From Prorocentrum cordatum (lineage: Eukaryota; Sar; Dinophyceae; Prorocentrales; Prorocentraceae): a stretch of DNA of 64,000 nucleotides. Position numbers and translations under genes: made by a program. A model generated the notes under the pieces. The model was not told where the DNA came from. It saw nothing but the letters and a program-made list of their open reading frames with translations, and did no database searches. The stretch's first letter is position 1. Each line of letters starts with the position of its first letter. The DNA is taken from contig CAUYUJ010008113.1 in the NCBI GenBank assembly GCA_963575745.1, forward strand, positions 76,001-140,000, read 5' to 3'. Of this stretch, positions 34,481 to 51,334 are shown piece after piece.

Positions 34481-34571
34481 CATGCCGCTTTTCCCCTCGT
34501 CTCCGCGGCCCCGGGGCCGGAAAACGCGGGCCTCCGGGGGCCCGGAGAGGAGGGCGGGGTTCGGCCGCCTG

Positions 34572-34605
34572 CTTCGAGAATGGTGGCTCTTACGCTAGTT
34601 GCACC
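34572..34605 (+). repeat. Element B left terminal inverted repeat
   Basis: Begins CTTCGAGAATGGTGG and ends CTAGTTGCACC. It matches the reverse complement of 50880-50913 at 32 of 34 positions. Confidence 0.85.
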
Positions 34606-34745
34606 CTATGTATAAGTATCGCAAGTAACATAGCTACTTACATGAGCTACTTATGGGTACTTACTAAGATACTTATAAGTAACTTAAGTTGATGTTCTTA
34701 AGTTACTTAAGCTAGCACTATAAGATACTTATATGTTACTTAGGG
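34606..34745. repeat. Element B left subterminal repeats
   Basis: AT-rich array of overlapping ACTTATAAGT, TAAGTAAC and TTAAGTTACTTAAG motifs, many of them small palindromes. The matching array is at 50638-50879. Confidence 0.8.
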
Positions 34746-34901
34746 AAATGAAGCGATCGCGATCGCTTGGGAGGAGGAGGAGGAGGAGAGCGATGTCGAT
34801 CGCTGTGAGGGGGGGGAGGGGGGGAGGAGAGTGATGAGCGCGGCGGGGCGCGCGGCCTCCTCACCGCGCGCGGCCGCGTCCTCAGTGTACGCGCGGCCTC
34901 C

Positions 34902-35373
34902 TCACCGCGCAGGGGGCTCACCCTCAGGGGCCGCCTCGCCGCCCTGCCCGTCGCGGAAGGCGGTCAAGCAGATCGCCTCCGCCTCGCTCAACGCCTGCAG
35001 CTCGGCCTGCTGTTGGAGCCGCCTGAGGACGCTGGAGTCGTTCCACCCATCCCCGCCCAGGGACGCGAGCAGCTCCACCAGCTCATCCTCGGTGGGAGGG
35101 CGCACGGTGGCGCTTTCGAACTCCCACGAACGCTGGACCTCCATTGCCTGCTCCCTCTCGGCCGACGGCTGCAACCTCGAGGCGCGGCCGCTTGGGTGGC
35201 GGCGGCGGCGCCGCGTCCTTGGAGGTGGCCGCAACGAAAGCGGCGGGCGACGGCATCTTGAAGAACTTCGCGTTGGCCATATTCGGCCACGGGCCGCCTC
35301 GCGGCAGCGGGACACTGGACGGCTTCGCGCCGACCAGCCCAGGTGGCAGCGGTTCCGAGGGGAGATCGTCCAT
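34902..35373 (-). CDS. Element B gene 1: small acidic protein, frameshifted
   Basis: Starts at 35373 with MDDLPSEPLPPGLVGAKPSS and reads to about KRPRLEV. The next credible segment is in another frame: EVQRSWEFESATVRPPTEDE, then LVELLASLGGDGWNDSSVLR and AICLTAFRDGQGG, stop 34902. A one-base change around 35150-35190 joins them into about 155 residues. The start is supported by a ~105-bp upstream module (35407-35510) shared with gene 3. The C-terminal half is a likely helical domain. No family is recognised. The frameshift may be an assembly error or decay. Confidence 0.5.
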
Positions 35374-35406
35374 GACGCGCCCCCTCCTGCGCGCGCGCGC
35401 GCCGTC

Positions 35407-35510
35407 GCTTGGCCGCGAGCGCCCCGTGCGTCACTCGCGAGGCGAGCCGAAACGGCTGAGCAATCGCCGTCATCGCGAGCCCATCGTCGCCAACGCCCGC
35501 CCGAGCGATC
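35407..35510 (-). promoter_or_regulatory. Upstream module of gene 1
   Basis: About 105 bp with CGCTTGGCC, GCGTCACTCGCGAG, the palindrome-like AGCCGAAACGGCT, CATCGCGAGCCCATC and CGCCCGCCCGAGCGATCGCC. It is roughly 85% identical to 39169-39276 upstream of gene 3, whose coding sequence is unrelated. Confidence 0.65.
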
Positions 35511-35998
35511 GCCATCGCTCCACCCATATTCCCACCCGCGCCCGAGCGATCGACATCGCTCTCCTCCTCCTCATCATCGTCATCCTCCTCTTCCTCCTTC
35601 TCCTGCCTCCTCCCCCTTCCAAGCGATCGACATCGCTTCGCCTCCCCCAGCGATCGGCATCGCTCTCTTGCTCCTCATCCTCCTCCTCCTCCTCCTCGCG
35701 GCGATCGAGATCGCGAGCCCCCCTGGCTGCCTATGCAAATCCCGCGGCCCCACTGGCTGCCCATGCACATCGCGATCGGCATCGCTACTCCTCCTCCTCC
35801 CTCCGCAGCCCCCTGGCTGCCCATGCAGATCCTGCTCCTCCTCATCCTCCTGCTCCTGCTCCTCCTGATCCTCCTGCTCCTCCTCCTCCTCCTCCTCCTC
35901 CTCCTCCTCCAAGCGATCGCCATCGCTACCTCCCCCAAGCGATCGACATCGATATCCCCCCCCATGCTTCTTGTTGGCGCGCGCAGCCTCGCGCCGCC

Positions 35999-36402
35999 TC
36001 ACTGCGGGGGCACAGGCCGCGGCGGCGGGGGCGGCTCAGTCAGGGCGTCCGTGGACGACCCTGGGCGCCCGTCGCCGCCCGCGAGCCCCTCCTCACGGGG
36101 GGGCCACGGCGGCGGAGGCGGCTTCGTCAGGGCGTCGGCCATGACCGCCGCCGACGCCATGGCCGCCTCCGCCTCGGGGGCGTCGTGCAGCCTCTGCAGG
36201 CGGATGATCGTCATCGCGTCCTGCTTGAGCTGCGCCAGCGCCGCCGCATGCACCGCGGCGCGGCGGCGCGCGACGCTCAGCAGCTCGGCGGCCCGATCCA
36301 GCTCGACGTCGCGCATGTCGATCTGGAGGGCCAAGTGCCGCGCCACCTGGGGGGGTCGTCGTCGTCGTCGTCGCCGCCGCCGCCGCCGTCGTCGTCGCCG
36401 CC

Positions 36403-36450
<48 letters not shown>

Positions 36451-36707
36451 TCGTCGTCGTCTCGTCGTCGTCGTCGTCGTCTTATCCGCCTCCTCCTTCT
36501 CCGCCCGCAGCTGGGCGTTCGCCGCGCGCAGCTGCTCGACCTCCCCGCGCAGCTGCTCCACCTCCCCGAGCAGCCGCTCGGGCAAGCTCGCCTCATTCGT
36601 CGCCGTCTTCGTCGCCGTCGTCGCATCGTCGTCGTCGTCTCGTCGTCGTGCGCGGCCGCCTTCGGCCAGCTCGAGGCGCGCTTGCGCGCGGCCGCCAGGG
36701 GCAGCAT
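35999..36707 (-). CDS. Element B gene 2: coiled-coil protein with triplet-repeat frame breaks
   Basis: From ATG 36705-36707 the frame reads MLPLAAARKRASSWPKAAA and HDDETTTT. Within a CGA/ACG repeat it shifts to NEASLPERLLGEVEQLRGEV with EQLRAANAQLRAEKEEADK (coiled coil). A second long GAC/GTC repeat then separates this from the last frame: RHLALQIDMRDVELDRAAEL, LKQDAMTIIRLQRLHDAPEA and a Pro-rich tail, stop 35999. The DDETTTT...NEA motif followed by a NAQLR coiled coil is shared with gene 9 (49127-49903), so the two are paralogs, and both have similar upstream DNA. Repeat slippage explains the frame changes. Confidence 0.5.
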
Positions 36708-37118
36708 CGCGCCTGCCCCGCGCGAGCCCAAGGGGCAGCAGCGCGCCAAAGCTGAACGGTTGCGCGCTGCGCGCAGTGATCTTATTTTCCTCCTCCCACC
36801 CCCCGCCCATCTTCCAGCGATCGATATCGCTATCCCCCCTCCTCCGCCACCTCCTCCTCCTCCTCTTCCTCCTTCAAGCGATCGACGTCGCTTCACCTCG
36901 CCCAGCGATCGGCATCGCTCGATTTTCTTTTCCGTCCCCCCCTCCTTCCAGCGATCGGCATCGCTTTCTCCCTCCCCCTCCTCCTCCTCCTCATCCTCAT
37001 CCTCCTCCTCTCATCTCCTCACCCGAGCGATCGGCATCGCTTCACCTCACCCAGCGATCGACATCGCTCCCCACACACACACACACACCGCGGCGCGGCG
37101 CATGTTTCCATATGTTTC

Positions 37119-39155
37119 TCAGCGCGCGTGCGCGATGACATAGTCACCGTTGCTCTTCGCGCGCCACGCCCAGACAGCGCCATCCAGGTCAGCGTCGGAC
37201 ATCTTGATGACGAGGAGCTCGTTCACCACGCCGCCAGCGCTGAGGCCGCACGCGCCCGTTGAGATCTCGATCCCGCGGGCGACGATGTGCAGTTCGCCAG
37301 AAATCTCCGCGCACGCGTCGATGATAAACACCTCGCCGCCGCGCGAGCGAACCACCTGGCCCACGTTGTAGGCGTTCCCTTCCCAGCGCAGCCCCCTGGC
37401 CACGGAGACGTCGGCGGCCCCGACTACGGAGCGCAACCCGTCAGATTCGGCACGCGCTCCCACCAGCGAGTTGCCCGTCGGCCCCATCTTCTCGAGTTGC
37501 CGCACTTGCTGCAATACGCAGCCCGCGAGCGTCGTGGCCTCCATGCGCGCGGTGTTCTCCACTGGTTCGGCCACCGCCTTTGCCACCTTATTGTGGCGCT
37601 CCGTCACGAAGCAGTCGGGCTCTTTCGGCTCCTGCTCCGCGTTGTGAAACACGTAGTGGTGTTTGGGCTTCACGTATTTGGTGCCGTACGCCTGCTTGTG
37701 CAAGTTGAGATGGGCTTCAGCCGCTGCAATGAAGTCACTGCGAGGGGGGGCACGCCCGCGCTTGACCTTCAGGAACGCGTCCGCCAGCAGGCCGCACGCC
37801 CGAAGGGGCGCTATTTCGCGCTCGAGCGACCCGATGCGGACGGCGCGCTCCTCGGCGAACGCCAAAAGGACGAAGAAGGTCGAGATCAGCTCGCTGGCGC
37901 CTGCTTTGAATGATTTCTGGCACGCGGTCTCGTGCCCAGGCGTGAACATATGTTTTGCCGTTCTGCCGTGCGACCTCGGGAACTGCCAGCGCCGTGTGAA
38001 CGCGTGAAGCTCGGGCCATCCGATGCCAGCTTTTCTCTGGCACGCCTTCACAAACGCGAACACCTCCCAGCCAACGGTGCCATTGCTCCATAGGTTGTGC
38101 ATGCTGTCATACGTCATGGCGGACGGCTTCATTGTCGCCCGCAATTCCTCATCCTCCAGCAAGCCATTGGGATGGTAGTTGAAGCCGCTGGCTTTGTAGA
38201 GCTTCTGGAAGTTGCCCTTCGTCATGTGGCCAGGCTGTCCCGCGGTCGCCGCCGCTGCGGCGAGGTCGTCCCACAGTTTCCACACGTCGGCGTCTGAATG
38301 ACGATCGAAGCGCGCGTGCTCGTGACAACAGGTGTCGACGAAGTAGCCGCCGTCGCCGTCGACGGAACCGCCCTTCAAGATCACGTTCTTGCATCGCAAG
38401 CAAGGCCTCCAGCCGTTGGCACCCCGCAAACGCAGAATGCCTTTGAACGCATCCATGTCTGCGAGAAGATTGGAGAGGCGCGCCCGCACCAGCATCGGAG
38501 TGCCGTTGGCCAGCTCCACGCGCGCGCCAGCTCCCGCGAGCCTGGAGGATCCGAAGAACATCTCCCTGATGAGGAGTCGAGTGGCACAGGAGATGCCGCC
38601 GTCCACGCGATTGCTCGCTTTCGTTCGCAGACACCCCAGCGGTAGCCACAGCTCTTCCCTCCATAGCATGTCAGCCCCGAACTCCAGGAACGTGAAGAAG
38701 ATCATCCAGAACTTCCGATCGTGCCTCAGGGCCAGCGCGTCGCCTGGTGTCACTTCGTCCATGTACAGCACCAGCGAGAGCGGCGCGCCGCGGACGCGGT
38801 TCGCGACCACCGCGAGAAGCTCACTGTACACGGGGCTGGCCTTGCAAACATACCGCAGGAGCTTGTCGATTCTGGCGAGCTTCCAAGCGAAGGGCGGCTC
38901 GTTATCTTGCATGGGCAATTCGATTGTCGCCCCGACGTCGCCGAATACGCCCTCAATGGTGGATTGGACCGCGTAAGCCGCCAGCTCTTGCGCATGGCCA
39001 GGCGTCGCGAGCTTCTTGGCGATGCGAACGAGGGCCTTGCCAGATGCGCCACGCGTAGCGATGGCATCGGATAGCCGACGCCGTTTGGCCGCCTGAGGTC
39101 GCGGACATCGGATACCCGACTCCGCTTCGGGGCCATCGCACCGCCGCTCGGGCAT
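37119..39155 (-). CDS. Element B gene 3: TNP2-like transposase candidate
   Basis: A complete ORF of about 678 codons from ATG 39155 (the frame is open to 39230, but the conserved upstream module occupies 39169-39276). Motifs in order: LVLYMDEVTPGDALALRHDR (likely first catalytic Asp), ARLSNLLADMDAFKGILRLR (likely second Asp) followed by WRPCLRCKN (Cys pair), TYDSMHNLWSNGTVGWEVFA (D-x-MH box of TNP2-type proteins), KPKHHYVFHNAEQ, and CFVTERHNKVAKAVAEPV (possible catalytic Glu). The order D-D-CxxC-DxMH-E matches the CACTA/TNP2 group and also the two copies in element A, which are different genes of the same broad family. It would cut and join element ends in the nucleus. The frame is intact. 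Residue roles are by analogy. Confidence 0.6.
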   Translation of the reverse strand: MPERRCDGPEAESGIRCPRPQAAKRRRLSDAIATRGASGKALVRIAKKLATPGHAQELAAYAVQSTIEGVFGDVGATIELPMQDNEPPFAWKLARIDKLLRYVCKASPVYSELLAVVANRVRGAPLSLVLYMDEVTPGDALALRHDRKFWMIFFTFLEFGADMLWREELWLPLGCLRTKASNRVDGGISCATRLLIREMFFGSSRLAGAGARVELANGTPMLVRARLSNLLADMDAFKGILRLRGANGWRPCLRCKNVILKGGSVDGDGGYFVDTCCHEHARFDRHSDADVWKLWDDLAAAAATAGQPGHMTKGNFQKLYKASGFNYHPNGLLEDEELRATMKPSAMTYDSMHNLWSNGTVGWEVFAFVKACQRKAGIGWPELHAFTRRWQFPRSHGRTAKHMFTPGHETACQKSFKAGASELISTFFVLLAFAEERAVRIGSLEREIAPLRACGLLADAFLKVKRGRAPPRSDFIAAAEAHLNLHKQAYGTKYVKPKHHYVFHNAEQEPKEPDCFVTERHNKVAKAVAEPVENTARMEATTLAGCVLQQVRQLEKMGPTGNSLVGARAESDGLRSVVGAADVSVARGLRWEGNAYNVGQVVRSRGGEVFIIDACAEISGELHIVARGIEISTGACGLSAGGVVNELLVIKMSDADLDGAVWAWRAKSNGDYVIAHAR

Positions 39156-39168
39156 CGCGCCGCCGCTT

Positions 39169-39276
39169 GGCCACGAGCGACGCGCGTCACTCGCGAGTCG
39201 AGCCGAAACGGCTGAGCAACTAGCCCCCATCGCGAGCCCATCCTCGCCAACGCCCGCCCGAGCGATCGCCCTCGCT
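39169..39276 (-). promoter_or_regulatory. Upstream module of gene 3
   Basis: Partner of 35407-35510. A shorter version (GCGTCACCCGCGA, then AGCCGACAACGGCT) lies upstream of gene 7 at about 48545-48580. Related GCGCA(A/G)CCG(T/C)TC boxes lie upstream of genes 2 and 9. Confidence 0.65.
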
Positions 39277-39520
39277 TCACCCCAGCGATCCCCATCGCTC
39301 CCCTCTCCCTAAGCGATCGCCATCGCTTCGCCCCAGCGATCCCCATCGCCCCCCTCTCCCTAAGCGATCGTCATCGCTTCGCCCCAGCGATCCCCATCGC
39401 TCCCCTCTCCACAAGCGATCGCCATCGCTTCACCCCAGCGATCCCCATCGCTTTTTTTATACACATGTGCGCCACCCACCAGCTGCGGGGCGGGGCGCGA
39501 AAGCGGGGCGGCGAGCGGCG

Positions 39521-41104
39521 TCAAAGCCTGCTGCTACCGCACGGCCGCGCGCTGGCCCCAGCGCTGTAGCTGATGGCGGCGGGCCCCCACGAGGACTTCG
39601 CAGTCACAAGGTACGCCTTGGCCATCGACATCACCAGAGTGCTCTGCGCCGCCGCCTGCGTCGACATGTCGCTGACATCCTGGGCGGACCAAGTGAACTC
39701 CGAAGGTGCGACCTTGCCACTGCTGACTCTATGGGCGACCTTCTTCATCTTGGTCAGCGTGTCCATGAGCTTTTTCGCGTGAACCAGCGTGGCCTCGGGG
39801 ATCTTCCCGACCCCGTCGCACTTGAGCGCCGACTCGAGCTTGTACATGGGCGCCACAATCCTGCTCAGGGTACGCGTGGCCAGGAGCTTCTGCTGCTGCG
39901 CCTCCTTGTCTTTCTTACTCTGCTCTTTCCTCTCCTGCTTCTCGCGCGCCGCGCGCTCCCTGGCGGTCTCGCCGACGCGCGGGTGCGCAGGCGACGAGCT
40001 CCCCGATTCGATGTCGCTGCCGCTCTGCGAGGAGCTGGTCGGTGGCTTCTGCTTCTTCATCTTCTTTGTCGAAGATTCGGCTGCCCCTTCGTTCGCCCGC
40101 TTCTTGCCCTTGGTCTTGCCATCGACCTTGGCATTGCTCTTATCCTTATCATGTTTATTGCCCTTGCTCTTGTCCTTACCGTCGGCCTTGTCGTCGGTTT
40201 TGTCCTTGTCTTTTTTCGTGGCCTTATGCTTGCCCTTATCTTTATCAGGGCCATTGCTCTTGGACTTGTCATTGTTCGCCCTCTTGTCCTTATCATTCTC
40301 CTTATATTTATCTTTGCCCTTGCTCTTGTCCTTATCCTTGCCCTCACCAGCGTCCTTATCTTTATCGGCGCCCTTGCTCTTGGCCTTGACCTTTTCCTTG
40401 TCTTTATCCTTATCCTTAGCCTTGTCTTTGCCATTGCTCTTGGACTTGTCATTGTCCTTATGCTTGTCCTTATCTTTATCGGTGTCCTTTGTCTTGGACT
40501 TTCCCTTGTCCTTATCAGCGTCCTTATCTTTATCGGCGGCCTTGCTCTTGGACTTCTCCTTCTCCTTCTCCTTATCCTTGTCCTTAGAGCTCTTGCCCCC
40601 CTTGGGCTTGTCCTTGATCTGCATTTTTCTGTTCTGGGGGGGTGGCGTGCCGTCGTCGCTGCTCTCATCGTTCGATCCGCCAGGAGTCACTGGAGGCGGC
40701 TGTCCGCCGTACGACCCGTCGCCGTCCCCCATGGAGTCCTCGCCCGAGGTCTCGAGGCCAAAACTGTCCGAGTCACCGCTGCCACTCTGCAACTGCTCCG
40801 AGCCCTCGGTGCTGTCGGACTCCCCGGCATCATCGACATCAGCGGTGCTGTCGGGGTCCTCGGCGCTCTCCTCATCGCCCTCCTCGGCGCTGTCGTCGGC
40901 GATCTCGGCCCCCGCTTGCGCGGATGCGGGCGTCTTTCTGGTGCAGGGCTCCTTGTCGTCTGAGCCTGAAGCCTCGAGCCCGTCTTCGGCCTCGGCGGCG
41001 CGCGATGCCCCATACTCATTCTCACGCCGCGCGATGTTGGCCTCCCACTTCTCGATCTCGTGGATGTCCACCTTGTAGCACAACCCCATCACGGCATGGT
41101 TCAA
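39521..41104 (-). CDS. Element B gene 4b: Lys/Asp-repeat protein (downstream of in-frame TAG)
   Basis: In the same reading frame as the gene at 41120-42340, separated by TAG and five codons, so probably its 3' half. It begins NHAVMGLCYKVDIHEIEKWE, then an acidic Ser-rich stretch, then a long KDKDK/EKEKSK repeat (about 180 residues), a KKMKKQK nuclear-signal-like run, and a helical C-terminus (LLATRTLSRIVAPMYKLESA and MDTLTKMKKVAHRV). The C-terminal helix resembles that of abundant dinoflagellate proteins of unknown function. If translated alone, the first ATG is in GLCYKV's preceding codon. Likely nuclear and disordered apart from the ends. Confidence 0.55.
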   Translation of the reverse strand: MNHAVMGLCYKVDIHEIEKWEANIARRENEYGASRAAEAEDGLEASGSDDKEPCTRKTPASAQAGAEIADDSAEEGDEESAEDPDSTADVDDAGESDSTEGSEQLQSGSGDSDSFGLETSGEDSMGDGDGSYGGQPPPVTPGGSNDESSDDGTPPPQNRKMQIKDKPKGGKSSKDKDKEKEKEKSKSKAADKDKDADKDKGKSKTKDTDKDKDKHKDNDKSKSNGKDKAKDKDKDKEKVKAKSKGADKDKDAGEGKDKDKSKGKDKYKENDKDKRANNDKSKSNGPDKDKGKHKATKKDKDKTDDKADGKDKSKGNKHDKDKSNAKVDGKTKGKKRANEGAAESSTKKMKKQKPPTSSSQSGSDIESGSSSPAHPRVGETARERAAREKQERKEQSKKDKEAQQQKLLATRTLSRIVAPMYKLESALKCDGVGKIPEATLVHAKKLMDTLTKMKKVAHRVSSGKVAPSEFTWSAQDVSDMSTQAAAQSTLVMSMAKAYLVTAKSSWGPAAISYSAGASARPCGSSRL

Positions 41105-41119
41105 CGTGTCAGTGCACGT

Positions 41120-42340
41120 CTACCTGATCCTTCTCCACGGGAAGCCTTGCCTCTTGTACCAGCTCAGCGGGTAGTAGCCGCCTCGCTTGCCCGCCCGCGT
41201 CCCTTTCTCGTGGATCGCCTTCGAGGTCGCCTGGGCCATGGCCTTGACGCTTGATTGGCCGCTGCAGGCGCGGATCTTCTTCCAGAACCCGACCCTCTCC
41301 TCAATGCTGAAGTCCTTCAGCTTCGCGGCCATCTCCTTCCACTCGGGCGCCCGATTCGCTTGCACCCCCCGCGTGCTGCACAACGCGCACCTGTAGATCT
41401 GGCCCTTCTTCGTCATCCGCACTGGGTACGCCTTCATGACGTCGCACGGCTGGTCGCACCTGTCGCAGAGGAACTCGTTCTCGACGGCGTCGAGCGAGAG
41501 CGGTGCTGCGCGCTTGTCAGGCGAGCTGAGCGCCGCGAACGATCCGACTCGAAACTTCGGCGAGGCGCCTGCCGTCGGCTCCTCGCCCATGCCCGCCGAC
41601 GCCTGGGACTCGGTGTCCGAGGTGCACCTTCGCGGACGAGACGGCGGCGACGACAACTCTTGCACCGTCGCCTTCATCTTCGACTTCGCCTTCGCCTTCG
41701 CCTTGCCCACCTGCAGCGCCCCATCGCCGTCCTTCGGCGAGGGCGCACTCTCGCCGAGCCTCAGGGTGGGCACACCACCGCTCGCCTTCGCCCTCGAAGT
41801 GGGCTGCATCCACTTCGCGATGTCGGCGAACTTGGGCGGCGCCTTCTTGGCTGCGGCCACTGCCATTGCCTTCTCCTTTGCCACGGCCTTGGCGTTCACC
41901 TTGGCCGTGGCCTTGGGCGGCGGGCCCTTCGGGCCTGCGTACTTCGCCCTGACCTTCTTCGGCTTGCGCCTGCGTCTGGCGGCGGCTGGCCTCCTCATCG
42001 GCCCCCGCTCGGCCGCATCCTCGCTTCCCTCAGCATCCACCTCCTCTTCCTTGGGCGCCTCCGCCTCCGCGGCTCCGCCCCCCTCGGTCGCCTCCTCGCC
42101 TTCCTCAGCCGCCACCTCCTCTTTCTCGGGCGCCTCCGCCTCCGCGGCTCCGCCCCCCGCGCCCGTCGCGCCCTCGAGACCGAGATCCACCGCGAGAATG
42201 TCCAGCAGCTCGGCGTCCTCGGGGACGCTTGCGCCCGCGGCGTCTGCCAACTGCAACGTCGCCTGGCTGTCCTCGCTCGCCGCCGCCTCATCGACCGCGC
42301 TGGTCAGCGCGCCGCCGCATCCCGCGGCCATCGCTCGCAA
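41120..42340 (-). CDS. Element B gene 4a: Cys4 zinc-binding protein
   Basis: 406 codons from ATG 42340 (a second ATG is at 42331). An Ala/Glu-rich acidic N-terminus contains two near-identical 'GGAAEAEAP..EE' repeats. A basic central part follows (RRRRKPKKVRAKYAGPKGP). A probable zinc-binding module reads CDRCDQPCDVMKAYPVRM and YRCALC (C-x2-C...C-x2-C). The end reads YYPLSWYKRQGFPWRRIR and is cut by TAG 41120-41122. The downstream frame stays open without a shift, so a point mutation or readthrough is likely. Dinoflagellate proteins I recall with this layout continue through this point, which supports a single ~930-residue protein. That recollection needs checking. Confidence 0.6.
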   Translation of the reverse strand: MRAMAAGCGGALTSAVDEAAASEDSQATLQLADAAGASVPEDAELLDILAVDLGLEGATGAGGGAAEAEAPEKEEVAAEEGEEATEGGGAAEAEAPKEEEVDAEGSEDAAERGPMRRPAAARRRRKPKKVRAKYAGPKGPPPKATAKVNAKAVAKEKAMAVAAAKKAPPKFADIAKWMQPTSRAKASGGVPTLRLGESAPSPKDGDGALQVGKAKAKAKSKMKATVQELSSPPSRPRRCTSDTESQASAGMGEEPTAGASPKFRVGSFAALSSPDKRAAPLSLDAVENEFLCDRCDQPCDVMKAYPVRMTKKGQIYRCALCSTRGVQANRAPEWKEMAAKLKDFSIEERVGFWKKIRACSGQSSVKAMAQATSKAIHEKGTRAGKRGGYYPLSWYKRQGFPWRRIR

Positions 42341-42518
42341 CGCCCCGCGACCGTTGGCGGTGCGCTCTCACCGATAGTCGAGCGACCTCGGTCGCTGGCT
42401 CTTGAGCCGCGCATGTTGCGTAGTGCCGTTATCAGGTAAGCTACGCGCGTCAGCGATCAGCATCGCTCGGGGAGGCAGCGATGAGTATCGCTCGATGTCG
42501 ATACTTACTCGAATAAGT

Positions 42519-42853
42519 GGCATAACTATCGTAAGTGGCAACCAATGTTATCCTTTTGTTATCCTTTTGTTATCCTTTGTTATCCTTTGTTATCCTGATC
42601 CCTGGGTCAGTTAGGATAACATGTTATCCTATCTGGCCCATGTTATCCTATCTGACCCAGTCAGTTAGGATAACAAAAGGATAACACTGGGTCGGTTAGG
42701 ATAACAGGTTATCCCATCTGACCCAGTGTTATCTTTTTGTTATCCTTTTGTTATCCTATCTGACCCAGTGACCAGGATAACAAAGGATAACAAAGGATAA
42801 CAAAAGGATAACAAAAGGATAACATTGGTTGTAACTTGCGATAGTTACGGTAG
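42519..42853. repeat. Central palindrome of GGATAAC repeats
   Basis: About 165-bp arms around 42683. The left arm carries GTTATCCTTTTGTTATCC repeats and the right arm their reverse (GGATAACAAAAGGATAAC). Both hold (C)TGACCCAG boxes, and the outer 30 bp also pair (GCATAACTATCG against CGATAGTTACGG). It lies within about 60 bp of the midpoint of element B, between gene 4a and gene 5, in AT-rich DNA. It could form a cruciform. An iteron-type origin is one possibility. Confidence 0.85.
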
Positions 42854-43606
42854 TTACCAGGGTAACTACCTCCCCACGCGATCACCATCGATGCCTCTCC
42901 TGCTCATTATCCTCATTCTTCCCTCAAGCGATCGGCATCGCTACCTCCCCCAAGCGATCACCATCGCTTCCCCTCCCTCTCATCATCCTCATTCTTCCCC
43001 AAGCGATCGACATCGCTACCTCCCCCAAGCGATCGCAATCGCTCCCCCTGTTCCTCATTCTCCCCCAGCGATCGGCATCGCGATCCACCTTCCCCCACCC
43101 CACCCCACCCCCGCCTACCCCCCACCCCCCAGCGATCGACATCGCTATCCTCCTCATCCTCCCTCTACTTCTCCTCATCCTCCTCCCCCCAGCGATCGGC
43201 ATTGCTATCCCCCCTCACCCCCAGCGATCGACATCGGTATCCTTCTCCTCCTCCTCCTCCTTCGTCTCCTCCCCCCAGCGATCGACATCGCTATCCCCTC
43301 TCCCCCAGCGATCGACATCGCTATCCTCCTCCTCCTTCTTATCCTCCTCCAAGCGATCGACATCGCTACCCCCCACCCCCCACCCAGCGATCGACATCGC
43401 TATCATCCTCATTATCCTGCTCCTTCTCCTCATTTCATATTCATAAGCATGCGGCGGCGCGATCCGCGGCCGCGGCCGCAGGCGGCGAACGCCACAGAGC
43501 GCCAGCGAGCCGCGACGAAGATGATGTCGGGCTCCAGGGTCGCCTCCCACATGTCGCTGGGAAGCGCCAGAGCCCGCTGAGCAGCGCCAAAGCCCGCTGC
43601 CACTGT

Positions 43607-44578
43607 TCAGAGCCCGCTGAGCTGCACCGACGCGCCCATCGTCTCGGCGACCTGCTCCCTCGCCGCCCTCAGGGACGTCTCCTCCTGCTCGAACGCCTGA
43701 GACGCCTTGAGGCACGTCTCCTTCGCCACCTTGGCGCAGCGCTCCGCCCGCTTCAGGCAGTCCATGAGCGCATCGGCCCGCGCCTTGCTGAGCCTGAACT
43801 CGGTCTCGGGGGGCACGTCGGGCAGCGAGACGTCTCCTGTCATGGGCGCCATGATCAGGTTCATCGCCGCGGGCGCCGCGGACGGCGCAGCCTTCCCCGT
43901 CAGGCCTGCAGTCGATTGCACCCGCAACTGCATATGCTGCTGTAGCTGCTGCTGCTGCTGCTGTATATGCTGCTGCTGCTGCCGCATCTGCTGCTGCTGC
44001 TGCTGCAGCTGCTCCGCCGTCTGCTGCAGCTTGTGCGCCGCCGCAGTCGCCAGGCTGGCCGCCGCCGCGGGGGCGCGGTCGTCTCCGCGGCCGCGGGGCG
44101 GCGTGCGCGGCGCGGGGCGGCCGCGGTGGCTGCGGTGGCTGCGGCTGCGGCTGCGCCTGCGCGCAGGCGATCGCGCGCGGCGATCGCGCCCGCGATTGCT
44201 GGCGGCCCCTGCGCTGGCGGCGGCCGCGGCGGCGGCCGCTGCGCTGGCGGCGGGCGCCGTCTTGTAGGGGTTGGCCGCGGTTGCCGCCGCCTTCTCGGCC
44301 TGGTGCTTCTGCCACGCCGCCACCTCGCTGTCGCTGAGGCGCTCCGCGTTGGCGTCGTCCAGGAGGCGGTTGATCTCCTCTAAGTTGGGCCCGCTCGCCG
44401 TCTTGAGAAACTTGTGGCTCTCCGCCGTCGACGTCGCCAAGTGGTTGAAGAGCCACTCCAAGCACTCCGCGTGGCTCTCCTTGTAGCACTTGGCCTTGCA
44501 GTTGCTGACGGGGCAGCCGACCGTGCACCACTCCTCCTCTGTCTTGACGGGGCAGGCTGCCGCGACGTCGGACGACAT
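43607..44578 (-). CDS. Element B gene 5: Cys-rich N-terminus, RS/Q-rich protein
   Basis: Start ATG 44576-44578 (MSSDVAAACPVKTEEEW). Upstream codons are only an ACCGAC-type repeat. The N-terminus has a spaced Cys/His set (CPVKTEEEWCTVGCP, then NCKAKCYKESHAEC), followed by LEWLFNHL. The middle is Ala-rich with an RS-type stretch (RRARSPARRRSRSRSHR). Then a Gln-rich coiled coil (QQQQMRQQQQHIQQQQ) and a helical C-terminus (RLSKARADALMDCLKRAERC), stop 43607. The N-terminal module resembles one repeated in dinoflagellate proteins of unknown function. It could bind zinc and nucleic acid. Intact frame. Confidence 0.6.
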   Translation of the reverse strand: MSSDVAAACPVKTEEEWCTVGCPVSNCKAKCYKESHAECLEWLFNHLATSTAESHKFLKTASGPNLEEINRLLDDANAERLSDSEVAAWQKHQAEKAAATAANPYKTAPAASAAAAAAAAASAGAASNRGRDRRARSPARRRSRSRSHRSHRGRPAPRTPPRGRGDDRAPAAAASLATAAAHKLQQTAEQLQQQQQQMRQQQQHIQQQQQQLQQHMQLRVQSTAGLTGKAAPSAAPAAMNLIMAPMTGDVSLPDVPPETEFRLSKARADALMDCLKRAERCAKVAKETCLKASQAFEQEETSLRAAREQVAETMGASVQLSGL

Positions 44579-44699
44579 GGTCGGTGCTGGCGACGGAGCT
44601 GGCGTCGGTGCTGACGACGGCGCTCGTGTCGGCGCTGGCGTCGGCGCGGGCGGGCGCCGATGGAGACACGCCCCGCTGGGCGCAGGCGATCCGCTCCGA

Positions 44700-44775
44700 T
44701 GGGCGCGCTGCGCGTGGAGCCGACAATGGCCATGCAATGCGTGCAATGATGCGTGCACTGTGAGCACAAGGCCAG
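44700..44775 (-). promoter_or_regulatory. Shared upstream box of genes 5 and 6 (gene 5 copy)
   Basis: About 55 bp with GCAATG, GCGTGCA and TGTGAGCACA, next to a 16-bp palindrome (44772). It matches 46545-46618 upstream of gene 6 (CAATGATGTGCGCAATGTGC). Each is followed, before the ATG, by a GC-rich GCGCC/ACCGAC-type repeat leader. Confidence 0.5.
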
Positions 44776-44959
44776 CGATCGGAATCGCTCCCCCACCCAA
44801 TTTTGTCGTCGTCGGTCGTCGCCTTTGTCAGTCGTCGCCAGAAGTCGTCACATCCCCTCAGCCAGCGATCGTAATAGCCATCCCCATCCTCACATCCCCA
44901 TCCACACATCGCAATCGTTAGTCGTCGGTCCTCATCCTCACATCCCCTCAGCGACGCCT

Positions 44960-45055
44960 CCCATCCCCTCAGCGATCGTAATCGCTATTGCACACACAAG
45001 CGATCGTAATCGCTATTGCACACACAAGCGGTCGTAATCGCGATTACAAACAATC
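44960..45055 (+). repeat. 27-bp tandem repeat containing the 16-bp palindrome
   Basis: Three units of AGCGATCGTAATCGCTATTG plus CACACACA. Confidence 0.8.
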
Positions 45056-45218
45056 TCTGCGCGTACACAAGAGATCGTTTTGCCACAGCGCCTGGAGCGG
45101 CAAGCGCATGCAGATCGCTTATGCGCGCCCACGGCGCGAAGAGGCGCCGCACCCCCAGCGCGCCGCGCCTGCAGCGCAGGCGCCAGCGGCGCCGCGCCAG
45201 GGCGCCGCGCGCCTCACG

Positions 45219-46479
45219 TCAGCCGCGACGGCGGCGGGACGGCGGCGGGGACGCCTCTGCGCCACGGCGGCAGCGGCGCTGTCGATGGCCTCGGCGCTGC
45301 CCCTGGCGTCGGCGCCGTTGCCAGCGGGCGCGCGGGCGACGCATGCGCGGGCGCACCGCGCGCGGCGCCGCGGCGGGCGGGGGCGGCCCCGCGGGGGGAG
45401 GAGCCAGGGAATCGCCCTTGCCGCCGCCCTTGCCGCCGCCCTTGACGCCGCTGCGGGGGTCGGGGCGCGACCCAGCGGGGACCTTGCCTGGCGCGCCGCC
45501 GCCGTACTTCTTCGCGAAGTACTCCCTGTTCCTCCCCCCGCGGTTGGCCCACTGCTTGGTGTTGGCGCGGTACCGCTGGCCGCGCCACGTCTCGGGCCCC
45601 CCCTCGGCTGGACCCGCAGGGCCGCGCTGCCACCACTGCAAGCCGAGGGCCTTCGCCGCCGCAGCCTCGCCGCGCAGGTCGGCGACCTGCTCCTCGGTGT
45701 AGCCCGCCCCCTGGCCAGCCGCGCGCTCCTCGTAGACCCTCGCCCACGCCGCCGCGGCCACGGCCTCAGGGGGGGGGGGCGGCACCCGAGGCGGGTGGGG
45801 CGGCGCCCGAGGCCATTGCGACCCCTTGGCGCGCGGGTCGAGGGCGCGCGGGCTGCGGCTCCGCGAGCGCTCCGCGGCCGTCGGCGCGGGCGGCGCGGGA
45901 GCCGCCGCTGGCGGCGCGGCCGCTGACTCCTCGGCCGCCGCAGCCGCTGCCGCCTGACGCACGGCCGCCAAATCGCGGCGCGAGACGCACGGCCGCGGCG
46001 CGCTGAGCGACAGCGACGAGCGGCCCGACTGGCCGCCCGACGAGCGGCTGTCGCGAGGATCGCGCGCCTGCGGCGAGGACACGACCTCGACGAGGGGCGC
46101 CTCCTCGCGAGGCACCGCCTCCTCCTCCTCCTCCTCCGCCGCCTGCTCCTCCGCCGCCGCGGGTTCCTCGACCTCCGCGCCCTCCTCGCCTGGCGACGCC
46201 GCAATCTCCAGGAGCACGTCTGGCGCATCGTGCGTCTCGACCTCCGCGCCCGCCTCGGACGCCTCCTCCTGCTCCTTCGCGGCGGCCTCTGTTAAAGGAG
46301 ACTCCTGCTCCTCCGCGGCCTCGGGCGGCGCCTCCTCCCCGTGCTCCTCCGCGGCCTCGGGCGGCGCCTCCTCATGAGCAGCCAACGCCGCGTTTGCGAA
46401 GACGTCCGCGGCCTCGTTCGCGAAGGCGAAGAACTCCTCGGCGGCATCGCGACGGCCGCGGCTGTGGGGCGGCGCCATG
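45219..46479 (-). CDS. Element B gene 6: acidic/basic protein with GGRNREYF motif
   Basis: ATG 46477-46479 (MAPPHSRGRRDAAEEFFAFA) is chosen because upstream codons are a repeat leader. The first half is Glu/Ala-rich with repeated EEAPPEAAEE. The middle has RSRSRSP. The C-terminal module is YTEEQVADLRGEAAAAKALG, then WRGQRYRANTKQWANRGGRN and REYFAKKYGGG, followed by a Gly/Lys/Arg tail, stop 45219. The 'RGGRNREYFAKKY' module resembles one repeated in dinoflagellate unknowns. Intact frame. Possibly RNA or DNA binding through the Gly/Arg tail. Confidence 0.55.
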
Positions 46480-46544
46480 GCGGCGCTGGTGCAGGCGCAG
46501 GTGTAGGCGCTGGGCCTGGTGTAGGCGCTGGCGCGCCACCTGCT

Positions 46545-46618
46545 GGGCCCCAAATGGCTAGTGTGATGCATGCAATGATGTGCGCAATGTGCGCACATGC
46601 CCAGCGATCGCCATCGCT
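46545..46618 (-). promoter_or_regulatory. Shared upstream box of genes 5 and 6 (gene 6 copy)
   Basis: See the copy at 44700-44775. The conserved blocks are CATGCAATGATG and GCGCAATGTGCGCACATG, then the 16-bp palindrome at 46602. Confidence 0.5.
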
Positions 46619-47024
46619 CCTCCGCCTCTTGCTCTTCCACCTCATCCACCTCCCCTCCCATCACCACGTCCACTCTAGCGATCGCCATCGCTGCAATCTC
46701 CATCACCATCTCCACGACAGCTGCAATTCCACTCGCTGAAATCCCCAAGCGATCGCCATCGCTGCAATCTGCACTCGCTGCAAACTAATCTACAATCCCT
46801 GCAACCACAATCGATCATCATCGCTGCCCTGCCCAACCGACCTCAAGCGATCCCCATCGCTGTCATGCAACTCCATCCCTGCACCCCCCCGAACAACCAT
46901 CCCTACACCAAGCGATCATCATCGCTGCCCCTCCTCCACCACTCCCTATTCATAGCCATAATCGGCTATCTAGTCGTGTGCGAGCACACGCATGCAGGCT
47001 GCATCGTCGCAGCACCCCTGCCGA

Positions 47025-48509
47025 TCAAGTGTGGATGCCGAGCTTCTTCTCCTGTTTGCGCACCCACTTCTTAGCCGCAGCGATCGCCTTGTCGCTGCTG
47101 CCGCCGTGGTCGCTGAACTTGATGGCCGTCGACTGGCCTGGACCTTTCATACCCGTGCGGCACATGACCTGGTTGCGGGACCATTCCACCGCATATGCGG
47201 GTTTCGGTGGTTTCTTGACCCCCTTCGCGCCCACGTGCTTGGCCTCAGTCTTCTTCTTCTTCTTGTTCTTCCTCTTCGCATTGGCCTTGGCTTTGGGGGG
47301 CGCGGGGTGGCCGTCGCCAGCGGCCTTGCGCTTCTTCTTCATCGGCGGCGGCGGCTCCGCCTCCTCCACGCCGTCGGCGCTCTTGTTATCGGAGTCGCCC
47401 CCGTCGCTGCCCTCCGACTCGTCTTCGCTCGGCGGCGTCTTGGCCACATCTGGCAGGCATTGTTTGCCGCCGAGCTTCGCGAAGATCTTGTCCCTGGCCT
47501 CCTCCACGCTGTGCGTCGTCGGCGGCGGCGCCGACTCCGTGTCGCCGATCGGAATCGCGCCGTCCGTGGCGGGCGCAATGGGCTGCGGAGTGTAACGCCT
47601 GCATGGCACGCCGTCTCGCGCACCTTGGCGGTCGCCACCCTGCATCGTCATCGCCCTTTCCGCGAGCTGCAACGCCATGTCGACGGACGACCGATTGCCA
47701 TCGGACGTGGCCTTGAGGCGAGCCTTGGACTCTCGCATCGGGACCGCGTCGCACAGCACCATCAACATGGTGCGGTCCAGCGGGCACTCGTTTGCTGGGG
47801 CCTCCCCTCCGCCACCATACGCGCGCGAGTACCACTCGGGGTGCACCTTCGGCATGTCAGTCGGGTCCGCAGGGAGCTCGCTGACGAAGGACGGCTCGGT
47901 CGCGGCAAGCTGCTTACACAACTTCCACGGCAGGAGCTTCTTGGCGTATGTTTTCGCCCGCTTGAAATAGCCCCACTGTGCCATCGGACACATGCGCATC
48001 GTCCAATCGAAGCCGTCCACGAGGAGGGCGACGCACGCCGCCAGTTGAACCGTCGGCTCATGCAGCGTGCGCCACCCGAGGGATTTGCAAGCCTGCAGGA
48101 CGACCGCAACCCGACCCATGAAGTCGTTGCGCTCGTCCAGGATCTTGTCCCACTGCCTCTTCGTGAGGTAGGCGAGGATGGACGAGAAGTCCTGCATCGG
48201 CGTCCTGCCCGACCCCGCCAGCTCCGCGCTTGCGGCCGCGTTAGCGGCCAACATTTGCGCTGAGGCCGTCGCCAACGTCGTGACGCGGCCGAGCAGCGTG
48301 GCAAGCGCCCTCTTGCCGAAAGGCATCTGGCCGATCTCCAGGACCAGCATGGCCGAGTCCTCGGCGGAGATGAAGGCCCACGGCGCCATGATGGCCATCG
48401 CCATGGCGCTCTGCGCCTCCGCGATCTCCTTGTACGCGTCGGACTTCTTCCCGATCTGGGCGAGGACCGACTTGGCGGCCTTCAGCTGCTTCACCAGGTC
48501 GGCCGCCAT
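47025..48509 (-). CDS. Element B gene 7: ~494-aa protein of dinoflagellate type
   Basis: ATG 48507-48509 (MAADLVKQLKAAKSVLAQIG). Helical N-terminal region of about 250 residues with FISAEDSAMLVLEIGQMPFG, LAYLTKRQWDKILDERNDFM and MCPMAQWGYFKRAKTYAKKL. The middle is disordered and acidic (PPSEDESEGSDGGDSD), then Lys-rich (KRKNKKKKKTEAKH). The C-terminal module is YAVEWSRNQVMCRTGMKGPG, then STAIKFSDHGGSSDKAIAAA and KKWVRKQEKK. That C-terminal module loosely recalls an AP2-type DNA-binding fold, but the match is weak. Intact frame. A conserved AGCCG-AACGGCT box lies upstream (about 48540-48580). Confidence 0.55.
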   Translation of the reverse strand: MAADLVKQLKAAKSVLAQIGKKSDAYKEIAEAQSAMAMAIMAPWAFISAEDSAMLVLEIGQMPFGKRALATLLGRVTTLATASAQMLAANAAASAELAGSGRTPMQDFSSILAYLTKRQWDKILDERNDFMGRVAVVLQACKSLGWRTLHEPTVQLAACVALLVDGFDWTMRMCPMAQWGYFKRAKTYAKKLLPWKLCKQLAATEPSFVSELPADPTDMPKVHPEWYSRAYGGGGEAPANECPLDRTMLMVLCDAVPMRESKARLKATSDGNRSSVDMALQLAERAMTMQGGDRQGARDGVPCRRYTPQPIAPATDGAIPIGDTESAPPPTTHSVEEARDKIFAKLGGKQCLPDVAKTPPSEDESEGSDGGDSDNKSADGVEEAEPPPPMKKKRKAAGDGHPAPPKAKANAKRKNKKKKKTEAKHVGAKGVKKPPKPAYAVEWSRNQVMCRTGMKGPGQSTAIKFSDHGGSSDKAIAAAKKWVRKQEKKLGIHT

Positions 48510-49126
48510 GGCGCCCGCGGGCGTCACTCGCGTCGCGCACGCGGGCGTCACCCGCGACTACAAAGCCGACAACGGCTATGCACAGCGATCGTTCAAAACG
48601 ATTGCCGCCTACTTAAGTTAGCGATCGGTATCGCTTCTCTGCTTCTCCCTCCTCCTCCCCGCCCTCCCCCAAGCGATCGCTGTCGCTTCTCCTTCTCCTC
48701 CTCCTCCTCCTCCAAGCGATCGCCATCGCAACCTCCCCCCATCCCCCTCCTCCTCACACAAGCGATCGCCATCGCTACATCCCCCGTCCCTCCCCCTCCT
48801 CCTATGATCCCTCCTCCACCTCCTCCTCCTCCTCTCTTGTTTTTGCAACCCGTAGGGTTCGGTCCGTGCACGTCCTACTCCCCCCTCCCCCCCTCCCCCA
48901 AGCGGTCGCCATCGCTGTTCCCCCCGTCGCCCCTCCTCCTCCTTCTGGGGGAGGTGAAGCGACGGCGATGACGATGAGGAGAAGGAAAAAAGATGAGGAG
49001 AAGGAAAGCGATGTCGATCGCTGAAAGGAAGGTGGATGATGATAAAGGAGATCACTGAGCGCCGCGCGCAGCCGCTCTGCCTCGTGGAGGCGCGCGGGGC
49101 TCGCGCGCGCGGGGCGCGGAGGCGCG

Positions 49127-49903
49127 ATGTGGGGTGCTCCGCGCGAGCTCGCGCAGGGGGCTCGCGCTTTGGCGCTCAGGCGCCAGCGCGACAACCTGCT
49201 GCAGCAGCTCGCGGAGGCGGATACCCCCTCCTCCCAGCGATCGCCATCGCTCTCCCCCGAATCCTCCTCCTCCGCTTCCTCCCCTTCCTCCTCCTCCTCC
49301 ACCTCATCCTTCCCCCTCCTCCCCCTCCTCGCCCCTCCCCCCACCCCCTCCTCCCTTCACTCCACCGCCCCTCTCCCCCTCCCCCCGCCTCTGCAGACTG
49401 TCAACGCGGAGCAGACAGAGCGCGCCGTGCAGCTCTCGCTGTGGCTGGAGGAGGCGGGAAACGATGACGACGAGACGACGACGACGGCGGCGGCGACGAC
49501 GACGACGAATGAGGCGGAGCGCGAGCTAGCGATCGCGATCGGCGAGAGGGACGCGGCGCTGCGGCGGGAGGCGGAGCTGAAGGCGGAGAACGCGCAGCTG
49601 AGGAAGGAGGCGCAGGGGGCGCAGCTGCTGCGGAGGGAGGAGCAGGCGCGCCTTCAGGCGGAAAATGCGCAGCTGAGGGCGGAGAAGGCGGAAAAGAAGA
49701 AGAAGAAGAAGAAGGAGAAAAAGGAGAAGAAGGAGAAGGGGGCGGCGGCGAAGGCGAAGGCGGCGGCGAAGGCGGCGAAGGCCAAGGCGGCGCGCGCCGC
49801 GGCGAAAGCGCCAGCGGCGGCGAAGGCGCCGCCAGCGCCGCCAGCGGCGCCAGCGGCGGCGAAGGCGCAAATGCCGCCGCCGTCGACTCCGCCTCCGCGG
49901 TGA
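49127..49903 (+). CDS. Element B gene 9: coiled-coil protein, paralog of gene 2
   Basis: The only plus-strand gene of element B. From ATG 49127 it reads LAQGARALALRRQRDNLLQQ. A Ser/Pro/Leu stretch at 49217-49396 is C/T-rich, holds a 16-bp palindrome and ends CCTCTGCAG, so it is probably a 180-bp GC-AG intron (phase 0, open either way). Then VNAEQTERAVQLSLWLEEAG and NDDDETTTT...NEAEREL (shared with gene 2), a coiled coil (AELKAENAQLRKEAQGAQLL), a poly-Lys run and an Ala/Lys/Pro tail, stop 49901-49903. The flipped palindromes and the GATCACTGAGCGC box upstream mirror gene 2. Probably nuclear. Function unknown. Confidence 0.55.
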   Translation: MWGAPRELAQGARALALRRQRDNLLQQLAEADTPSSQRSPSLSPESSSSASSPSSSSSTSSFPLLPLLAPPPTPSSLHSTAPLPLPPPLQTVNAEQTERAVQLSLWLEEAGNDDDETTTTAAATTTTNEAERELAIAIGERDAALRREAELKAENAQLRKEAQGAQLLRREEQARLQAENAQLRAEKAEKKKKKKKEKKEKKEKGAAAKAKAAAKAAKAKAARAAAKAPAAAKAPPAPPAAPAAAKAQMPPPSTPPPR

Positions 49904-50304
49904 GGCCGCGCGCCCGCAAGCGCGGAGCGCGCCGCGCGCCCGCAAGCGCGAAAACAAAAGACCAGCGATCGTAATCGCTATCCCCTCGTCCTCTTCCCCC
50001 CACCCCGCCCTCCCCCAAGCGATCACCGTCGCTTCTCTTCCTCCTTCCCGTCCTCATCCTCCTCCTTCCAAGCGATCGACATCGCTTCACCTCCCCCAGC
50101 GATCGCCATCGCTTCTCCTCCTCCTCCTCCTCCTCCTCCTCCTCCTCCTCCTCCAAGCGATCGCCATCGCTACCTTCCTCATCCCCCTCCTCCTCACCCA
50201 AGCGATCGCCATCGCTTCTTCTCCTCCTCCCCATCCAAGCGATCGACATCGCTACCTTCCCCATCCCCCTCCTCCCCACCCAAGCGATCGCCATCGCTAC
50301 CGCG

Positions 50305-50637
50305 GCGAGCACCCACCAGGCGGCGCCGCGACGAGCTCCAGGTCGATGGGCAAATCCCAAATCCTGAAAAACCTCTTTCAAATCCAGGTAACCTCCCCAA
50401 ATCCAGAAAACCTCACCAAATCCAAAAAACAATTTCCCCAAATCCGAAAATCGTTCCTGAAAACTACATCCACCTCCTCCTCCTCATCCCTCCTCCCCCT
50501 CCTCCTCCTCCTCCTCGTCCTCATCCTCGCCCTCCTTCTCGTCCTCTTCTGCGTGGGGGCCGCGGGCCGCGACGTCCCTGCGGCGCGGCGGGCGGGCGCG
50601 CGGCGGGAGGGGAAGAGAAGCGAAGGAGGGATGGAAG
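50305..50637. other. Non-coding right arm of element B
   Basis: Begins where the last 16-bp palindrome ends. It contains CAAATCC(A/G)GAAAA(C/T)C units (50355-50460, about 20 bp each) and a CCT tract (50470-50550). No gene is seen. Confidence 0.5.
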
Positions 50638-50879
50638 GAAGTTATAAGTTACTTATAAGTAACATATATGTTACTTATAAGTATTGCATCTCAGCACGGG
50701 TAAGTAACTTAGCGGTAGTTATAAGTATCTTCCAGCGTCATTAATAATCAGCGAAATACTTATAACTAACCTAAGTATAGTTATGCGACAAGACAAATAC
50801 TTAAGGGCACATAGAAATAGTTAGAAATACTTAGGTACTTATCCCTTGCTATAAGTATCTTATACCTAGCTGTACCTAT
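50638..50879. repeat. Element B right subterminal repeats
   Basis: AT-rich, with ACTTATAAGTAAC, TTATAAGTATCTT and similar motifs. Counterpart of 34606-34745. Confidence 0.8.
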
Positions 50880-50913
50880 GGTGCAACTAGCATAAGAACC
50901 ACCATTCTCGAAG
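50880..50913 (-). repeat. Element B right terminal inverted repeat
   Basis: Reverse complement of the left TIR with two mismatches. Confidence 0.85.
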
Positions 50914-51009
50914 TGGAGCTGCTTTGCCGCCTGGAGGAGGAGGAGGGAGGAGAGGAGGAGGAGGAGGAGGGAGGGAGGAGGGGGTCTTCGCCTCCCCCCC
51001 CCGCGCCAT

Positions 51010-51320
51010 GCTGCCCCCCCGAGGGGGGTGCCCGGCACCGGGGGGGGGGGGGGCCGGCACCGGGGGGGGGGGGGGGGGGGGGGGGGCCGGCACCGGGGGG
51101 GGGGGGGGGCCGGCACCGGGGGGGGGGTGCCGGCACCGGGGGGGGGTGCCGGCACGGGGGGGGGGGGTGCCGGGGGGGGGGGGTGCCGGCACCGGGGGGG
51201 GTGCCGGGGGGGGGGGGGGCCGGCACCGGGGGGGGGGCGGTGCCGGCACCGGGGGGGGGGTGCCGGCACCGGGGGGGGGGTGCCGGCACCGGGGGTGGGG
51301 GGGGGGTGCCGGCACCCCCT
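51010..51320. repeat. G-rich minisatellite with GGTGCCGGCACC core
   Basis: About 14 units of 16-30 bp: poly-G of variable length followed by the perfect palindrome GGTGCCGGCACC or GGCCGGCACC. It is strongly G-quadruplex prone. Pro-, Gly- and Arg-rich ORFs on both strands are shadows. Confidence 0.9.
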
Positions 51321-51334
51321 GGGCCGGCGGGGAG

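Follow-up and report, generated by a model that had tools for sequence, protein, structure and literature searches.

Plant En/Spm transposons encode TnpA and TnpD. In the CACTA/Mirage/Chapaev/Transib (CMCT) clade elements have a DDE catalytic triad, a target duplication of 2 to 5 bp and, in most cases, 5'-CA..TG-3' termini, and the accessory gene common to the TET/JBP-carrying fungal DNA transposons is a TET/JBP dioxygenase (PMC12730594). Enlarged EnSpm/CACTA families of 16-20 kb with 4-5 open reading frames (ORFs) occur in the red alga Chondrus crispus (Kojima 2013, cited in PMC6431247), so that a large multi-ORF DNA transposon is an already known kind. Here we show that the 16,342-bp segment 34572-50913 of a 64,000-nucleotide stretch of the dinoflagellate Prorocentrum cordatum genome (contig CAUYUJ010008113.1, positions 76,001 to 140,000; the whole stretch is called the window) is a DNA transposon with inverted ends. 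A preliminary description of the window had proposed a large, multi-gene mobile element bounded by terminal inverted repeats (TIRs), and had asked whether its genes occur together elsewhere with the same ends; they do so in other copies in the same genome, and 20 of the 20 other copies retrieved end in the same TIRs. We regard the segment, with a probability of roughly 0.78, as a recently active, autonomous, multi-gene DNA transposon with a core gene set.

The borders are exact: CTTCGAG...CTCGAAG is common to the other copies, and the sequence outside diverges. The two ends are composed as follows.

34570..34571: left target-site duplication TG, a 2-bp YR duplication repeated at 50914-50915
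34572..34605, + strand: left TIR, CTTCGAG..., from TIR comparison across copies
34606..34745, no strand: left AT-rich subterminal repeats of the TACTTATAAGTAACTTA type
50637..50879, no strand: right AT-rich subterminal repeats
50880..50913, - strand: right TIR
50914..50915, no strand: right target-site duplication TG

The TIRs agree at 32 of 34 bases, just as first described, and extending the comparison gives 37 of 41. AT-rich repeats of the same type are present at both ends, again as had been noticed. A change of composition at both borders had also been proposed; this holds for GC skew, which is mostly negative inside the element (cumulative value +1.05 near 35 kb, -3.9 near 50.5 kb), but not for GC content, which is nearly flat across the borders except at the AT-rich ends. 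Shortly beyond the right end lies a long G-rich tract of GGCACCGGGGGG-type repeats (window 51006-51330).

The dinucleotide flanking the element is YR on the left in 21 of 21 copies and on the right in 21 of 21 (window included), and the two are equal in 17 (16 of the 20 others and the window), which indicates a 2-bp target duplication. The base before the YR is C in 17 of the 21 copies and the base after it is G in 15. The four copies with unequal pairs differ by transitions only, and two of them represent one duplicated locus: the copies on C17871 (L010, L030) and C3716 (L013, L033) share both flanks, the surrounding locus having been duplicated, or split in the assembly. Three insertions lie within tandem repeats (C17925, C7825, C19900), where rejoining the flanks, read by eye, restores the repeat and so provides an internal check of the empty site. 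A candidate 8-bp duplication, GCCGCCTG, which adjoins the left TIR and recurs 12 bp beyond the right TIR, was dropped, as the 20 other copies show 2 bp.

The assembly searched comprises 4.13 Gb in 21,875 contigs; the genome is given as 4.15 Gb with 59.7% GC in its description (PMC10666404). With the first 229 bases of the element as query, 40 matches were scored out of 121 candidates, at 97-100% identity. Twenty of the 39 other copies were retrieved, hand-picked, with three near contig ends left out. The right TIR is present in all 20; 19 span 16,084-16,778 bp and one (L038, on C14719) reaches 19,572 bp with a nested insert of 3,261 bp inside it, where a 6-bp duplication, ACACAA, is apparent by eye. 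Genome-wide we counted 122 TIRs (60 + 62) at up to three mismatches, against 0 in the control. A TIR pair occurring here only by chance, one of two outcomes named beforehand as speaking against the proposal, was not found, and neither was the other, genes dispersed without shared ends. Among the 100 TIRs listed, all exact, there are 40 pairs and 20 unpaired ends; 38 of the 40 pairs span 15.9-17.1 kb, the outliers measuring 11.0 kb (the shortest) and 21.7 kb. Over the right 3.8 kb, pairwise divergence of the 21 copies is 0.18-2.8%. The element is mobile and has recently been active.

In usual transposons short, gene-less derivatives outnumber full copies. This element departs from that pattern, nearly all of the listed pairs being full length, and the rarity of short copies among them suggests that its products act in cis or that it spreads only whole.

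Over the same right 3.8 kb in the 21 young copies (window 46972-50913 and L029-L048), singleton changes are GC-biased, A>G plus T>C making up 140 of 282 against 59 for C>T plus G>A; the per-site rate of T>C (about 0.10) is approximately four times that of C>T (about 0.014-0.043), and CpG sites are no mutational hotspots. The usual mutation bias runs in the opposite direction, and the observation could bear on the high GC of the P. cordatum genome.

About eight genes lie between the ends, eight frames having high GC at codon position 3 (0.79-0.92). About nine had been counted originally, two of which, frames C and D, are one gene broken in the window copy by a single in-frame stop; that the genes lie mostly on one strand was seen correctly, only H being on the + strand. 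The internal features are listed below.

34752..50298, no strand: palindrome array AGCGAT-NNNN-ATCGCT; 67 sites at up to two mismatches, 48 of them exact; 63 outside coding sequence
34905..35144, - strand: gene A1, 80 amino acids (MEVQRSWEF...); frame open in all 8 copies inspected, the window among them; present as well in P0013, a collinear P. cordatum model
36280..36810, - strand: gene A2, about 177 amino acids, coiled coil and low complexity; a weak gene call; GC at codon position 3 of 0.85
37119..39230, - strand: gene B, putative transposase, 703 amino acids; D158...D258-C277xxC280...H525xxxH529...E544
39521..42331, - strand: gene CD, a single frame, zinc-ribbon-like (CxxC..CxxC) at its centre and K/D/E-rich in its tail; in-frame stop at 41120-41122 in the window copy
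42502..42868, no strand: inverted repeat of 120 nt, rich in GATAACAAAAG-type words, separating genes E and CD
43607..44578, - strand: gene E, 323 amino acids, Cys-rich N-terminus
45219..46709, - strand: gene F, 419 or 496 amino acids, with its start at 46478 or 46709
47025..48509, - strand: gene G, 494 amino acids, with a predicted AP2-like DNA-binding domain at the C-terminus
49127..49903, + strand: gene H, 258 amino acids, coiled coil, K/A-rich; doubtful

Mobilisation of the element had been ascribed to the third of these genes, and B is indeed the likely transposase, to judge by its motifs. D158, D258 and E544 are invariant in five of five aligned transposases, as are C277/C280 and H524, H525/H529, which follow in that order (assigned by eye), and the B frame is open in 8 of the 9 copies read directly, window included. 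Gene B is therefore likely to encode a DDE transposase of the CMCT clade, in a Cys-Cys/His-His variant, the class being assigned from motifs only; no Pfam transposase model matched any of the five aligned transposases at E<=10, a search in which the HMMER filters drop most weak matches. The duplication of 2 bp falls within the CMCT range, in the window family and in a second family (below), where the flanking pair is equal in 2 of 3 copies, but the termini are CTTCGAG..CTCGAAG here and CTTAAAG..CTCTAAG in the second family rather than CA..TG. The preliminary description had placed the element with CACTA-type transposons. CACTA/EnSpm proper, which needs CAC..GTG termini and a 3-bp duplication, is excluded because the ends are CTT..AAG and the duplication is 2 bp.

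The second family came to light with the protein query P0002, which gave 67 matches, 66 of 3,430 candidates being scored. Thirty-five of the matches lie at 81-86%, and two others, at 80 and 83%, are pieces of a further one; the remaining 30, at 67-68%, belong to the window's family, and 29 of these have a B frame without stops. Gene content was read in one copy, on C10402, which measures 17,259 bp and has TIRs beginning CTTAAAGGCTTCAAGATCTTA (29 of 33 matching), a target duplication CG/CG and AT-rich ends. Genes B, CD (as one open frame), E, F and G lie there in the same order and on the same strand as in the window, with amino acid identities of 64% for B, 47% for CD, 34% for E, 57% for G and, in tblastn, 33% for F; E and F scored 61 and 53 bits, the highest values among 50 shuffles of each being 25 and 27. 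No match to A1, A2 or H was found in the C10402 copy. Ends of the family were sought in seven copies, the register being read by eye: left ends were found in six of the seven, all with YR and then CTTAA, and right ends in four of the six with sequence, all followed by YR. Of the three copies with both ends, the one with an unequal flanking pair, on C15966, has CA and CG. The order B-CD-E-F-G is thus conserved in two families.

This bears directly on the strongest competing explanation, namely that movement depends on gene B alone and that the rest are passenger genes captured from the host, in line with the term cargo used at the outset. The transposase is one gene of about eight, and within-family differences in G and H look neutral. 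Gene G has frame-breaking indels (not divisible by three) in 4 of 20 other copies and a stop in a fifth, coverage being partial in several, and H has such indels in 8 of 20, for which reason we regard H as a doubtful gene. These broken frames count in favour of the passenger explanation. However, the five genes stand in the same order and on the same strand in a family whose transposase is only 64% identical, as read in one copy of it, E and F score above every shuffle, and 38 of the 40 listed pairs are full length. The supposed cargo is better read as a co-inherited core gene set because the B-CD-E-F-G order is kept in the second family, and we consider the passenger explanation improbable, though it is the alternative that fares best.

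Frames C and D are joined into one gene because the relative P0015 is a fused protein, the reading frame does not shift across the stop, and other copies are open there (11 of the 11 that cover the position). A twelfth stretch, on C17871, ended short, its one stop lying just ahead of the opening of the CD frame; another of the 12 (C5868) has a different stop inside CD. The P. cordatum gene model P0013, which lies on a 628-kb contig and includes KH domains, contains pieces of G, F, E and A1 in order and on one strand; away from the junctions one residue differs, and the window lacks the model's KH part and its tail. The collinearity suggests another copy of the element at that gene. No consistent splice-like signals were seen by eye at the borders of the pieces in the window bases, and P0013 may be an artefact of gene prediction, although the collinear DNA beneath it is real. 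Across ten window frames Pfam gave only weak matches at E<=1, below cut-offs. Rfam matches, below gathering scores and mostly on the hairpin at 42.7 kb, were treated as chance; the word AGGATAACAAAA, part of the 42502-42868 region, is frequent in the second family's stretch too. Genes A1 and B have a leader in common (window 35443-35458 and 39199-39214, - strand) containing CAGCCGTTTCGGCTCG, 12 of whose 15 bases resemble part of the dinoflagellate spliced leader; it is possibly a relict or a trans-splicing site.

The palindromes occupy all nine gaps between genes and ends. Only 4 of the 67 sites fall in coding sequence (2 if F starts at 46478) although this makes up 64% of the element (p 2.7e-23), and 50 of the 53 asymmetric sites have one orientation. 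The window beyond the element holds five sites, each with two mismatches; no exact palindrome was found in the right flanks of the 20 other copies or in the 1.5-kb left flanks of eight copies, the window's own included. Within the C10402 copy there are 44 exact palindromes, and the 2.5 kb outside it contain 0; 26 stand against 2 in the orientation of the window family, and 16 are other. The palindromes, first suggested to be private to the element, are shared with the second family. Gene G, modelled from 10 of 11 aligned rows with the chimeric P0013 left out, is predicted to end in an AP2-like DNA-binding fold, its C-terminus forming a predicted three-stranded sheet and helix with a structural match to AP2. 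The top Foldseek rows for G are 14-3-3 and other helical matches (probability about 0.1), and the VIA rows ranking above the AP2 row concern its helical N-terminal part; the Pfam AP2 family has no match in the G alignment at E<=10, where the KH domains stem from P0013. From their position, number, orientation and co-occurrence in two families, we infer that the palindromes are candidate binding sites (AGCGATNNNNATCGCT, AGCGATCGCCATCGCT) of gene G.

In a model that accommodates these observations, gene B would act on the 34-bp TIRs and probably on the AT-rich subterminal repeats as well, and the element would insert, by either cut-and-paste or replicative movement, at a short target resembling CYRG whose central YR pair is duplicated. 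The predicted AP2-like protein G would bind the palindromes, which are present in each space between genes, and would serve the element as its private regulator or as an organiser of its nucleoprotein. The products of CD, E and F would be accessory proteins that the element uses, perhaps in cis, rather than host cargo; the same may hold, with less confidence, for A1, A2 and H.

A compact multi-gene layout with TIRs, mostly on one strand and with proteins without known family, would also suit an integrated virus or Polinton-like element that uses TIRs and a DDE enzyme, its extra genes being virion or replication genes. Against this, capsid, polymerase and packaging families had no match at E<=1 in the ten frames scanned, among them Polinton capsid and DNA polymerase B in Pfam, remote folds being examined for G and B; searches of IMG/VR with the TIR, the palindrome pair and the alignments of B and G found no relatives, and none turned up in the genome_contigs collection; and there are dozens of near-identical full-length copies with a 2-bp duplication. 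We think a viral origin quite unlikely. Least probable of all is membership of the KDZ/Zisupton group. Fungal KDZ elements do combine large size with additional genes, but Zisupton has an 8-bp duplication (PMC12730594), against 2 bp here; the 8-bp match GCCGCCTG at the flanks of the window copy is taken as chance given the 2 bp of other copies.

The reading of an autonomous transposon with a core gene set can be taken a step further, tentatively and with the odds against it: the element might represent a new superfamily as a self-contained system, in which at least five genes (for the transposase, the zinc-ribbon/K-rich protein, E, F and the AP2-like protein) are inherited as a fixed block, an element-encoded AP2 factor works on about 44-67 palindromes per copy, and all copies across the genome constitute one private regulon or nucleoprotein compartment; short copies would fail to spread, the products being active in cis.

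Many unexplained protein families are encoded in the huge genomes of dinoflagellates, and a block of them belongs, as seen here, to a mobile element present in dozens of near-identical copies. The broader expectation, that such elements account for many dinoflagellate protein families, is upheld for the families seen here and unsupported beyond them. The ends, target, gene block and palindrome provide a precise handle for finding remaining elements. Dinoflagellates are thought to have little transcriptional regulation (abstract of PMC11071213), and the element offers a direct test of sequence-specific control in these organisms. In the literature on dinoflagellate TIR, cargo, KDZ and CACTA transposons, taken as titles and abstract openings with subscription journals mostly outside this scope, the element is not described; as far as that literature shows, there is no precedent for its gene block, ends, target or palindrome array.

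The element resembles CMCT elements in the order D...D-C(2)C...H(3-4)H...E and in its short (2-bp) target duplication, which PlavakaA also has, and differs from them in its CTT..AAG rather than CA..TG termini, its about eight genes and the lack of a detectable Pfam transposase match. With the enlarged EnSpm/CACTA families of Chondrus it shares its size class, an algal host and several ORFs; as far as their cited description goes, it differs from them in having about eight genes, other termini and duplication, a predicted AP2-like protein and a palindrome array. Like plant En/Spm it combines a likely transposase with a predicted element-encoded DNA-binding protein and subterminal repeats, although here the candidate binder is AP2-like and every intergenic region contains candidate sites. 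Finally, in common with the TET/JBP-carrying fungal transposons it has accessory gene content beyond the transposase, but here this takes the form of a block of at least five genes common to two families.

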